A stretch of DNA of 64,000 bases from Pyrocephalus nanus (Eukaryota > Chordata > Aves > Passeriformes > Tyrannidae): contig CM076275.1 in the NCBI GenBank assembly GCA_038380795.1, forward strand, positions 4,094,501-4,158,500, given 5' to 3'. The notes beneath the pieces are model-generated. The model saw only the letters and a list, made by a program, of their open reading frames with translations, did no database searches and was not told where the DNA came from. The position numbers were made by a program, and so were the translations under genes. This document shows positions 47,715-57,138 of the stretch, piece by piece; the stretch's first letter is position 1, and every line of letters starts with the position of its first letter.

Positions 47715-47922
47715 CCTGGAGCAGCAGAGCAGAGCCCTGCAGTTGGAGATCCGGGGGATGCGCTGGAAACTGGGACAGCAGCGTAAATGGTACAGGCTGG
47801 TGGAGGTGAAGATGAGAAACGCAGAGAGGGCAAAGGAAGACGCAGAGAGAAGAAACGAAATGCTCCAAAAGGAAATGGAAGAGTTCTTTGAGACCTCTGG
47901 GGAAATGAACAGGTGGAGGTAA
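47715..47922 (+). CDS. C-terminal coiled-coil exon of an ARHGAP22/ARHGAP24-type RhoGAP (partial gene)
   Basis: An acceptor (TGTGTTTCCACCAG, AG at 47713-47714) precedes an open frame of 68 codons that ends in TAA at 47920-47922. The first base completes a split codon, most simply Ser. The frame starts LEQQSRALQLEIRGMRWKL, has the core KMRNAERAKEDAERRN followed by EMLQKEMEEFF, and ends ETSGEMNRWR. It is highly charged with heptad-like spacing, so a coiled coil is expected. The core matches, without gaps, the C-terminal coil of ARHGAP24 (FilGAP) and slightly less well ARHGAP22. These GAPs inactivate Rac/Cdc42-type GTPases, and the coil mediates self-association. The PH and RhoGAP exons were not found in the 47 kb upstream. 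The end is shorter than in ARHGAP24, and the stop overlaps a donor-like GAG|GTAAAC at 47919, so a further exon is possible. An ATTAAA at 48743-48748 could be its poly(A) signal. The gene is convergent with MAPK9. Confidence 0.82.
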
Positions 47923-50169
47923 ACAGGAGCGTGTCAGCTCTAACTGCAGCTGTGCAAGTGAGAAAGGCCTCACCGCGGGTTCAGAGGTGAAATATGAAAC
48001 CCAACGGGAAAACCTCGGCTGTCAATGATGCAACGAAGGGATCCCTGAACTCCAGGGCTTTCTCTTACCATTGGAAAAATCTTTCAGATACTTTGCAGTA
48101 CCCCCTCCCAAGCCAGCTTGTGCAGTGCCCTGGGGTTTTTTTGGGTCGCCCCGAGTGATGCTCGAAATGCCTGAGTGGTTTTAATGCGGGGATGTCAGCC
48201 TTGCTGGAGTGTTTTTTTTACCAGCCAGCCCAGAGGTGCCAGTTATTGCATGGGCTTCAAAAGGGTGCTGAGCTCTCACCTGCACCCAAATCAGCTGTTT
48301 CAGTTAGAGAAGCAATGAGACACACACTGCATCTCCTTACAGCACTCTGTGCCTGGGACTCAGAGCTCCTGTTGCTCTCACTGAAGGGATATTCAGCCAT
48401 GGAGAGGGAGGAGATCCCTCACAAAGCCATTCGCTCCTCTGGATTACAATTTCCCTCCCTACAGCACTCACATAAGAACACATTAGTCTTAAGACAGTCA
48501 CTGGTAGGGGTCCCTCCCTCCTGAGCCACCTCTCTCCACACAAGAAATGTGTTAATTATCTTGGTACAGCATTAATGACATTTATGCAGCTAAATATCAA
48601 CAAAATAACCATTTTTCTTTTAACCTACTGCAGAATTTTTACGTGAACAAAAGAGCAGCTGTTACTTAAAACTCAAGTACCAACATAAAATTACACTTCG
48701 TATGATAAAAACACGTGGTTCATTATTTGCTCTTCCAGCAAGATTAAATGCAGGAGTGGCCACCTACCTGAGAGCTCGGTGTCTCACTAAAGCAGCTGAT
48801 GGTGTGTAAGCAGAAGTCACACAGATGTTTCCCTTCTTCCCCAGAGAAGAGCAGGCAGCTTGTTTTGAGATCAAATATGAATGAATCAAAAAATCAGTCT
48901 CACCCCACAAGGCCCACCGAGTGACAGCCCTGCTCTATTCCAAGCCCCAGGCAGTGTAACAGGCTCTTCATTCCCCAGTGCCCCCCGAGCCAACCCCTTC
49001 CATGCACTCACACAACTGCATCACACAGCCTGTTTCTTTGCTACCTTACCTGCTCACCAAGCCAGCACAGGTTTTCCATCAGAATTCCATGCACTTGCAT
49101 TCTTCTTGTTTCTTTTTCCCACCTTTTTTTTTTTTTTTTGAGACCTCATCGCTATGAAAAAAAAATCAATTTCTGAAGTCCCACATTCCTCAGAAAATAT
49201 TTAGATCTTGTTTAATCCCATCACTCCCTCCTTACCTTTCTAAAACTGCCCTGCCAGCTTCAAGAACTTGCAGGAAATATAAAGGAAAGGTAGGGCATAA
49301 GCGAGGAATGTTTCTGGGTAATGCTTTGTAAAGCACTTTGTAAAACCCATCATCATCCTGCTTAATTCCTTTATTGCTGTTGTTCTGTATTTAACGGATT
49401 AGATCTTCTGTAGCTGAAGAAGCACCTGGAAAACATCCTATCATCCAGTACAGGGATGCTTTGGGATCTACTGGGCATCCTTGCTTTATCCAGGGACTCT
49501 CTTGCAAAGCCTGGTAGAGAAGAGGCAAAAATTCCAAGTTCTCTGTGCAAGAAAAAGCAACGTTGCTGTTAAAAATTATTTCAGTCCCAGCTAAAGCTTT
49601 CACAACACCAAAGGCTGGCTGAGAGCCCCAGTCCTGGCTCCAGGAAGGCAGCTGTTAATCCCTCCTTTAATATCAGAAACCCTCCAGTAAAAGCCATTAG
49701 ATCAAAGCAGCAGTTGAGTTTTACCTCCCCTCCCCTGGAATTAGGGCAGAGAGCTCTGTGAGGTGCCTGGAAACCTCAGGGTTGTCTTTGCAAAAATATT
49801 TATCCCCAAAATAAGCACAATAGAACTATTTTTTTCCAAGCCCCTGCCATTTAAACAACAACAAAAAAAACCTCCAATCAAGTTTCAAAGCACACTTGGC
49901 AGTAAAACCAATTGTTAATGTGTCCAAATGTTCCAGCTGATCAGGAAAAAGCTGCTCCAACCTATCTCTTAAAGCTTTTCTTCATTCATTTTTCAGGCCA
50001 ACATTTATTTTTTGGTTAACTGGAAGCTGAAGTGGTAACTGAAACGTCATGTTTTGAAAGGGCTGATCTATACATCTACCATGCATCATTTTGTTTACAG
50101 GAAACATTCTACAACACAGGAAGAATCAAGAAAAAGAAAACATTGCAACAGTAAATAAGACAGACTGCT
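47923..50169. other. Inter-gene space between convergent genes; probable 3'UTR of the ARHGAP-like gene at its left end
   Basis: No coding exon is visible. An ATTAAA at 48743-48748 could end the plus-strand gene. A T-run is at 49124-49139. The MAPK9 transcript may reach the right end of this stretch. Confidence 0.5.
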
Positions 50170-50189
50170 CAAATTTTTAGGTATACATA

Positions 50190-50195
50190 TTTATT
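50190..50195 (-). terminator. Candidate distal MAPK9 poly(A) signal AATAAA
   Basis: The minus strand reads GACAAATAAATATGTATACC. Starting about 25-45 nt further downstream on that strand is a U/GU-rich stretch (GTCTGTCTTATTTACTGTTG, then a TTTTCTTTTTC run), the usual layout of a vertebrate cleavage site. Four other AATAAA words lie nearer the stop codon, so this is only one of several candidates. Confidence 0.35.
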
Positions 50196-54762: not shown

Positions 54763-55301
54763 CCAAAAGGAAAAATTCAAATATCCAAACACGAGTGGAA
54801 ACAGAAATAAATCTTTGATAAGTCTTCTAAAGCTCTAAGTGTTAAAATGAAGACAGCACAGTACAACTTCACTTGAAAAAACTGTAAGTCTTGAAAAATG
54901 AAATCCAATAGATGACTTCCATAATGAATCACTCATGTTCATTGTGAACAGGTGTCTTCAGTAATTTTAACTTACATAAATAACAAGGGCCAAAAAAAAA
55001 AAAAAAAAAAAAAAAAGATGCAAAAGAACACAACTTGTACTGTTCTGCTATATGGTAAATGGGTATTTTTAAATGTTTTTCCAGTGACAAAAATGCACTA
55101 AAAATACTTCACATACACTGTCAGTATTCATAGATAAAATTAAGTTATCCATAGGTTTAAAACCAAACAATAAGAAAAAATCCAAGCTCCAATATCCTAC
55201 CATTCAATCAAATAGAGTTTTAAAAATTAGAGGTTCCAGATGGCAATTCTGAAGTTAACATTAACTACTTTCTTAATTTTCATTTCTTTTAACCTTCTGG
55301 G

Positions 55302-55341
55302 ACCTTCATCTTTTTAGTAAAACCTTCATCTTTTTGCTACG
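55302..55341. repeat. Short direct repeat (ACCTTCATCTTTTT twice, 20 bp apart)
   Basis: ACCTTCATCTTTTT occurs at 55302-55315 and again at 55322-55335, inside the probable MAPK9 3'UTR. It is probably a small slippage duplication. Confidence 0.7.
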
Positions 55342-56995
55342 ATGAATAAGCCATTAAAAAGGGGTAAAATTTTAATATAAAAGCAACATTTGCATAAGGA
55401 GAAAGTGCTGCTTTCCTACTCATAAGGTCAGGAACAATGCATAACTTTCTTTTACAAGAGAAATATGTCAGTAATGCAGTGGCTGCCTGGGCCAGTATGT
55501 TTTACAAGTTCTATTTATACATTCAAGTCAAGAGCATCTGGATCGACAGCTAAAGACAGTGCCTTTAAGAAAGTGGTGATTTACCTCATCCTGTACATCT
55601 CTCACTACTCTCACAGTTCTTTATGTGAGTCACACACGAGACCCTTTAGGAACACGTCACTCCTGGGCACTCTGAAGTGAACGTGCACAAACTCACAAGG
55701 GTGTGACATCGAGCAAGTTAATCCCCACTCTGCTGCAAACACGTTTACTAATTGAGGATTGTGCAATGTAACAGGCAATGGTTGTGTTATCTGATTCTGA
55801 AAACTGTATTGGTAAGTCTGAACTGAAACAGCAAATTACCTCCTCCTCTTCTCTGACACTGTATTTAGAAAACATGTATTAAGGATGATTTCCTTCCCCT
55901 GGACAAATAGAGAGGTTTAATAGAGCTGAGCTCTCTTAACTGAATACTTAATTTACAAGTGACTCAAAACTATGGTATTTTTATTTCTTTTATTTACTTG
56001 ATAGATAGAGTGGACCCATTAAAAAAATGGAAAATATTTATGCAGCTTTTCCAGGCTGCAAGTCTCTCCAATTCATCTCTCCTTTTATCAGAGCTTGCAG
56101 TGAATGAAGAGCATCACAGATATCATTTCCTTCTCTGCTTATGTTTGTTAAAGGACCAGTATCACAAGCTAGAAAATACAGAACATTTCAGCACACTCTC
56201 CTCCTCCAAACAGGCACTGCTCCACAGAAAAGTCACTCATCCTTCCTCCAGATTTATTTAAGCCACTGTATCTTCCATCCACATTAAAAAACCTGAAGAA
56301 GTTACGAGACACATACTCACAGGTGAAATACAAAGTCAGGGCTATATTCTTCAAACTTCACATTTATCTCTTCAACAAGAAGATAGAGCAGTTGGAAAGG
56401 GAAGATAGAAAGGGCTCAACTGAAAAAAAAAAAGTGCTAAGTGGAAGAATGAGTGCCCTTTTAAGATAGAACTGAGAGCATTCAACATGTGAGCTCACAC
56501 TTACATACAACACTCCAGTTAAATAAAGCAAACTGCCACAGTCACACACTAAAACAAACTTTCATAGAGGTTATACATTCAAGAAACCTATTAATGAGCA
56601 ATACTGTACTAAAAATGTAAACAACCACTGTGTCACAGAAGCCTGCCAGTGGGGACTGAAGATTGATGAACCCACTGAAGAGGAGTTACTGACTAAAGGC
56701 CTATTGTAACTGCTCACCTGAAATAGGCTGAAACAAAGAAAAGCCTATAATAGTGTCTAAATTCAATTTTTTTTTTTTGTTCTTTAGACATTGATTTGCT
56801 TTCATTCTACAACATTAAGCAGGCAATTTCATAACAACTGAGTAAAAAAAACAGGCATTACTTTAGCAGAACATGCAGAACATGGAGTTTTTTTCTACTT
56901 GGTTCCATTAACTTACAAGCAATTCAGGCCCAATGGAAACAAGAGCTTTTTTTTTTTTTTTTTTTCCCCAAAGTCAGGTCTGCAATCACGGCTGA

Positions 56996-57138
56996 TCATC
57001 GACATCCTTCGAGGGGTCCTGTCAAGGCATCGAGGCTGCTGTCTGTGTCTGAGGCCAAGGTTTGCTCTGTTGACATGGATGAAATGTCATTGATAGATGA
57101 TGACTGGGAAGGGCTGGTGTTGCTATTCACTGCTGCAT
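56996..57138 (-). CDS. MAPK9: MAPK9 last coding exon, long (alpha2, p54-type) C-terminus
   Basis: When splicing uses the acceptor CACAG (AG at 57139-57140), the preceding G plus AT gives Asp. The frame then reads [46 protein letters not shown] and a TGA stop at 56996-56998. The Ser/Thr-rich tail and the GPLEGCR end are those of JNK2 alpha2. Differences from human JNK2 are small (NSNTSPSQ for SSNATPSQ, ALTG for ASTG). The untranslated part of the exon continues to the left. Confidence 0.97.

Follow-up and report, generated by a model that had tools for sequence, protein, structure and literature searches.

A third FilGAP-family gene beside MAPK9, probably cut down to a coil-only protein in amniotes and to a pseudogene in Pyrocephalus nanus

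Within a 64,000-nucleotide stretch of the genome of the bird Pyrocephalus nanus (contig CM076275.1, positions 4,094,501 to 4,158,500 of the forward strand; hereafter the window), the remains of a short gene related to the Rho GTPase-activating proteins ARHGAP24 (FilGAP) and ARHGAP22 lie tail to tail with MAPK9 (JNK2) (Table 1). Its second coding exon, on the plus strand, reads SLEQQSRALQLEIRGMRWKLGQQRKWYRLVEVKMRNAERAKEDAERRNEMLQKEMEEFFETSGEMNRWR up to a stop codon at 47922 and encodes a C-terminal coil of the ARHGAP24/22 type. The CAG acceptor ends at 47714, the codon-usage score is the third-highest among all segments of the window, and a caecilian ARHGAP24-like protein matches the exon at 72% over 61 amino acids (aa; expect value (E) 8e-22); PDB and Pfam searches using the coil exon gave no informative match, and a PADLOC scan was uninformative too. 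The coding end of the upstream exon is LRVLMARQKAEYESKIA, with a donor, AG/GTAAAG, after 46533 that splices in phase 2, and joining 46533 to 47715 yields ...ESKIASLEQQ..., which keeps the register of ARHGAP24-type proteins. In the bird's own ARHGAP24 and ARHGAP22, the acceptor of the coil exon has the same phase as in the short gene, one base before the codon. A sequence-only reading of this DNA had proposed an exon with the ARHGAP24/22 C-terminal coil about 9 kb from, and convergent with, MAPK9; homology, codon usage and splice phase agree on the exon, and the identity of MAPK9 is confirmed by two exons, one C-terminal and one from the kinase, whose best matches are solved MAPK9 chains. MAPK9 runs on the minus strand, and its last coding base (56999) lies 9.1 kb from the coil stop. 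No CpG island that might serve as a promoter was found in 500-base blocks of the window.

Table 1 Features of the short gene and of its neighbour, in window coordinates
Feature	Position	Strand	Evidence
Degraded 5' portion of the old large coding exon that lay between RhoGAP and coil	46083..46208	+	tblastn with caecilian proteins
Short gene, coding portion of exon 1	46290..46533	+	ATG at 46290; broken frame; match to Corapipo protein in two frames
Frameshift region	46434..46446	+	Net 7-nt loss against Corapipo protein; frame-aware alignment and out-of-frame whole-genome matches
Exon 2, coiled-coil exon with stop	47715..47922	+	Homology, codon usage, tree placement
MAPK9 (JNK2) exons, C-terminal half	56999..60668	-	Best match to solved MAPK9 chains

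The short gene is best seen through a 153-aa protein of the manakin Corapipo altera (P0126), which is 92% identical over the 87-aa spliced coil of the window gene and whose residues 1-85 match exon 1, split over two frames; a whole-genome search with this protein returned the window exon at 91%, as a single copy. Exon 1 begins MSEENTPSGYLTRLASPEG, loses a net 7 nucleotides relative to Corapipo and then reaches a stop, and in a frame-aware alignment the coil is open in a frame other than that of the exon 1 start. An independent genome search gave the same two out-of-frame pieces in one copy, and the shift may reflect a sequencing or allelic error. Because exon 1 is frameshifted, this bird's copy is probably a young pseudogene, which could at best still yield a coil peptide of 82 aa started at an internal ATG. 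Further upstream, the decayed piece of the large exon matches caecilian P0001 at 45% over 42 columns (E 1e-6 in tblastn, as summed with a neighbouring piece) and P0008 alone at E 4e-4, and the whole-genome search gives E 0.009 at this place; it contains an in-frame TGA at 46128-46130, and another TGA stands one codon upstream of the ATG at 46290. Exon 1, its frameshift and the absence of a RhoGAP exon are additions to what the sequence-only reading had observed.

We placed the coil within its family in three trees. In a tree of 37 rows, the window coil, short proteins of amniotes and proteins of fishes and amphibians formed one clade (support 100/100), beside an ARHGAP24 clade (96/98) and with human ARHGAP22 and ARHGAP25 outside (98/96). 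When the bird's own ARHGAP22, ARHGAP24 and ARHGAP25 took the place of such sequences, the third clade was again recovered (98/98), the ARHGAP24 rows formed no supported clade, and the approximately unbiased (AU) test did not discriminate between ARHGAP22 and ARHGAP24 as sister to the third clade (p = 0.305). A tree of the coil alone likewise returned the third clade (100/100). The window row was sister to Corapipo altera in the 37-row tree (100/98) and in the other two (100/96 in both), a position that points to a suboscine bird. Ray-finned fishes and tetrapods occur both in the third clade and among the ARHGAP24 rows, which also include rays. With the longer proteins, a union of the short proteins with ARHGAP24 was rejected (AU p = 4e-7), as was one with ARHGAP22 (p = 1.5e-11). 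Inside the family tree, with the same intron phase before the coil and with the C-terminal coil of the FilGAP family (ARHGAP22/24/25), the window gene is, judged by its sequence, a third copy in that family and not a recent copy of ARHGAP24 or ARHGAP22.

That a piece of ARHGAP24 was recently copied, or misassembled, beside MAPK9 is accordingly scarcely credible. The core KMRNAERAKEDAE is identical to ARHGAP24 (P0012, P0013), and the coil-only tree nests the third clade among ARHGAP24 rows with weak support (82/81 and 93/73) and gives marginal AU values (0.048 against union with ARHGAP24, 0.073 against union with ARHGAP22), but the trees with longer proteins support the clade at 98-100, and the bird's own ARHGAP24 coil on contig C6 is only 61% identical to the Corapipo short protein, against 91% for the window exon. 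We therefore dropped this candidate on the AU test in the tree with own-genome paralogues. The third ARHGAP22/24-type copy put forward from the sequence stands outside ARHGAP22, ARHGAP24 and ARHGAP25, and its placement inside either of the first two, which would make it a recent copy, is rejected with the longer proteins and only marginally with the coil alone.

Full-length relatives were found in fishes and amphibians. A coil search limited to proteins of about 400-1270 aa gave 13 matches among 48 candidates, eight of which (P0001-P0008), from caecilians, bowfin, sturgeon, paddlefish and lungfish, belong to the third paralogue; the other five (P0009-P0013) carry ARHGAP24-type tails, and the three put on the tree all fell within ARHGAP24. 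A profile (A1) built from six of the eight third-paralogue proteins matched 2789 of 8000 scored proteins, and the top ranks of the best 120 of these are held by gar (named Si:ch211-247j9.1), reedfish, salamanders and teleosts. Named amniotes among the same best 120 are labelled ARHGAP24, RHG24 or GTPase-activating 24, with the exception of pig P0078 (Rho-GAP domain-containing protein); labels alone are weak evidence, and the four rows of this amniote set that were placed on trees (P0031, P0035, P0042, P0050) fell with ARHGAP24. The third-clade RhoGAP proteins are about 600 aa long in fishes, lungfish, caecilians and salamanders, and bear the automatic names "ARHGAP24-like" or si:ch211-247j9.1. 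The RhoGAP domain is retained in them; none of the five scanned gave a PH family match, and the start of P0001 and P0008 resembles, by eye, the end of a PH domain.

The window gene, on the other hand, is not a RhoGAP gene. A RhoGAP profile found no exon in the 64 kb of the window, although in a control this profile recovered 12 of 12 hidden 35-aa pieces of the RhoGAP region from two left-out proteins (E 1.2e-4 or better), and none in the 90 kb to the left of it (best E 1.2). Whole-genome searches with lungfish and caecilian proteins (72 of 75 candidates scored in one, all 51 in the other) located RhoGAP exon sets of the family on contigs C6, C10 and C30 only. The C6 set is named ARHGAP24 by tree; those on C10 and C30 are assigned to ARHGAP22 and ARHGAP25 because they resemble the human sequences, and the C10 set also because it lies beside MAPK8; the remaining RhoGAP matches in the genome were weaker (≤47% identity) and were taken as other families. 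On contig C17, which holds the window, the matches were confined to the coil, a weak trace of the former large exon and, at 3.70 Mb, a distant RhoGAP match (36-41%). Nor did the window give a PH match, by motif or with ARHGAP24. The assembly searched is in 153 contigs and FilGAP-type genes have long introns, which leaves some room for a complete gene with its catalytic exons outside the window or in an assembly gap. We regard this as very improbable, since the last RhoGAP match of the paralogues in this bird lies 7.8 kb (ARHGAP24), 7.8 kb (ARHGAP22) and 2.6 kb (ARHGAP25) before the coil, whereas here the 47.7 kb of the window before the coil and 90 kb further left are empty, neither whole-genome search returned a fourth RhoGAP set, and a TGA lies one codon ahead of the ATG of exon 1. 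The earlier statement that this bird keeps the copy is not supported: only the coil end is kept, in a gene whose short frame is shifted.

Coil-only proteins proved to be widespread among amniotes. A search limited to 64-203 aa retained 50 short proteins among 53 candidates—20 bird rows (19 species), 13 squamates, 1 alligator, 2 turtles, 1 echidna, 2 ray-finned fish fragments and 11 unnamed—and the coil-only proteins of birds, squamates, turtles, alligator and echidna measure 84-203 aa. In birds, 14 of the 20 rows, from emu to manakin, are 153 or 154 aa long, the rest having 84, 96, 105, 111, 117 and 148; the 84-aa protein, from Neopelma, begins only at MLMARQ. Neither a RhoGAP nor a PH family match was found in any of the six short proteins scanned, and the database name "rho GTPase-activating protein 24-like" is therefore misleading for them. 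Two emu gene models (isoforms X1 and X2) hint at transcript evidence and are no proof of it. The predicted structure of the Corapipo protein (AlphaFold2, 17 rows) has a disordered start and one helix at 63-151, with block-mean predicted local distance difference test (pLDDT) values of 96-98 over 71-140. By eye, the start methionine of birds falls inside the caecilian protein (FEAMVEEN against MFEENPPS); for this reason, and given the stop-bearing exon remnant upstream, we read the short protein as the end of the old gene, now translated from a new start. A simple pseudogene of a RhoGAP gene, suggested by the in-frame TGA at 46128 and the missing RhoGAP, was dropped for amniotes once the coil-only proteins had been found, and is still likely for this species. 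Bird C-termini read FGEINRWK or similar, most other groups having FGELTNEVKKTERIVQSF or similar. Separately, 19 of the 20 bird rows (not P0175) reach the C-terminus and end early, in INRWK, MNRWK, INKWK or INGWK, compared with P0154, P0156 and P0164, as though a shift in the last codons had been fixed in the avian ancestor.

The coil is conserved across these groups. Emu is 80-82% identical to alligator, turtle or gecko, alligator to gecko 84% and turtle to gecko 88% (five pairs among sauropsid groups, 80-88%), and pairs with echidna reach 67-74% (three pairs); full-length third-paralogue coils stand at 70-83% (five pairs) and ARHGAP24 coils at 86-93% (four pairs), the pairs not being matched for age. 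The short coil thus evolves faster than ARHGAP24, and not clearly faster than its full-length orthologues. In the alignment, made with 17 of the 50 proteins, residues 68-148 hold 34 of the 35 invariant columns and the first 67 residues hold one. With 67-88% identity between amniote groups, the coil is conserved to about the same degree as in the full-length relatives, so that the truncated protein was probably functional.

An alternative is that the gene is a dead relic throughout birds, the 153-aa models being automatic predictions on a unitary pseudogene whose coil is still open by chance. The frameshift in this bird, the Neopelma protein that starts only at MLMARQ, the lack of RhoGAP and three unnamed proteins (P0166, P0169, P0174) that look degenerate, with a one-residue loss in the coil and changes at conserved sites, would all suit this account, which we nevertheless consider unlikely: most bird rows, from emu to manakin, are 153 or 154 aa long, squamates, turtles, alligator and echidna keep the coil (eight pairs), and the probability that the coil exon stays open in one lineage for 250 million years is 0.0013 if 1e-9 changes per site per year and a given indel share are assumed, or 0.04 to 2e-6 over the range of assumed rates. 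In other birds, perhaps passerines, the coil gene seems to be decaying in P0166, P0169 and P0174.

Taken together, these results make it likely that a third FilGAP-family gene ends with this exon, that the gene has shed its RhoGAP part and persists in amniotes in coil-only form, and that this bird's copy is probably a pseudogene. Besides the nesting in the coil-only tree and the three degenerate proteins, several points weigh against this. Decay is under-counted, because protein databases preferentially list intact frames; intermediate forms may exist at 204-334 aa, outside the range of the short-protein search; and a coil of the FilGAP family need not pair, as ARHGAP22 was reported neither to dimerise nor to bind filamin (PMC4059726). 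The gene is not confined to birds or sauropsids: echidna has the short form, and fishes and amphibians have the full-length one. No therian was named among the 50 short proteins, and therian loss is inferred from absence in these searches only.

The neighbourhood indicates where this third gene belongs. A JNK exon occurs three times in the genome, on C17 (minus strand, MAPK9), C10 (minus strand, MAPK8) and C6 (plus strand, MAPK10). On C10, about 9.3 kb separates the end of the ARHGAP22 coil from the facing end of MAPK8, in convergent orientation, against 9.1 kb on C17; on C6 (12610675-12810625), the ARHGAP24 coil and the MAPK10 exon lie on one strand about 175 kb apart, linked but not convergent, unlike the human arrangement given in the sequence-only reading. 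The same convergent layout and spacing of ARHGAP22 and MAPK8 supports the ohnologue idea, in agreement with the sequence-only reading, and the JNK-ARHGAP pairing is best read as older than the two rounds of genome duplication (2R), with the third gene as the likely MAPK9-linked ohnologue of ARHGAP22 and ARHGAP24. Exons of the RASGEF1 family lie on the minus strand of C17 at about 4005700-4010400, some 130 kb left of the coil, placing the coil gene between them and MAPK9; RASGEF1B gave no match in the window. With the coil gene, the JNK-ARHGAP paralogon gains its missing MAPK9 member, which appears not to have been simply lost, having been cut to its dimerisation coil and kept.

A few features of the surroundings were observed in passing. 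The MAPK9 exon around VDIWSVGCIM has two adjacent versions in the bird's own genome (C17, locus L037, positions 760-840 and 1057-1134), resembling the alternative exons known for JNK genes. Seventeen minus-strand poly(A)-like hexamers at 48180-56258 (a raw count) suggest that MAPK9 may have a long 3' untranslated region approaching the coil gene. Two segments of the window, 43372-43660 and 54680-54790, resemble the ends of avian CR1 repeats.

What the truncated protein might do can be framed from its better-known relatives. According to PMC2654154, FilGAP dimerises through its coil (residues 649-725) and contacts filamin A through residues 726-734, of which G730 and V734 are required; the ARHGAP24 numbering used here agrees with T728, G730, V734 and P736 of that paper. 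At the V734 position, the full-length third-paralogue proteins have N or S in 16 of 23 and V in two (P0023, P0026), and all 19 bird rows with the site have R, K or G. Position 730 is R in both caecilians and in barn owl; the window gene, compared by sequence in this numbering, keeps G730 and has R for V734. With the V734 position altered, filamin binding has probably been lost. The amniote remnant, about 153 aa in birds, is predicted to consist of a disordered N-terminus and one long helix, translated from a methionine once internal to the ancestral large exon. In species with an intact copy, this coil could pair with itself or with ARHGAP24/ARHGAP22-type coils and, lacking a GAP domain and with an altered filamin contact, could dilute FilGAP by pairing, titrating or relocating FilGAP-type RacGAPs in the manner of a microProtein. 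We offer this as the leading but tentative proposal, with pairing, expression and an effect on Rac all presumed. Somewhat more doubtful is the full history it would imply: that the catalytic half was lost around the amniote ancestor, that for about 300 million years thereafter the coil persisted as a natural dominant-negative microProtein acting on FilGAP/ARHGAP22 signalling, and that it was lost in therians and is being lost in this passerine-like lineage. By analogy with ARHGAP22, whose coil by itself suffices to reach Rab11 structures (PMC4059726), the coil might instead act alone as a targeting or scaffold piece, for instance on endosomes, without touching other FilGAP proteins; this is a possible but rather unlikely course, which the probable loss of filamin binding would suit, and to which the V kept in P0023 and P0026 runs counter.

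Members of this gene are already present in databases under automatic names; we found no paper on the gene among openly licensed PubMed Central papers. The full-length proteins share a clade (98-100) with the window gene, in which a remnant of their large exon is still readable, and differ in keeping RhoGAP and in ending with a tail, for example TNEVKKTERIVQSF, that the bird proteins did not show. The "24-like" models of sauropsids and echidna are orthologues by tree for the rows placed, and have an intact frame where that of this bird is shifted; with these intact orthologues it can be tested directly whether a coil-only regulator has arisen from within a RacGAP family. ARHGAP24 resembles the gene in its coil (58% between the human sequence and the window exon over 65 aa), in the intron phase before the coil exon and in linkage to a JNK gene, and differs in having PH, RhoGAP and a filamin-binding tail and in lying near MAPK10. 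ARHGAP22 shares the intron phase and a convergent JNK neighbour at about 9 kb, and differs in its RhoGAP, its position beside MAPK8 and a coil 48% identical to the Corapipo short protein. The likeness to microProteins, in the plant examples of PMC7534434, is that a single interaction domain is left of a multidomain relative; the difference is that here the family is one of animal RacGAPs and the target is putative.

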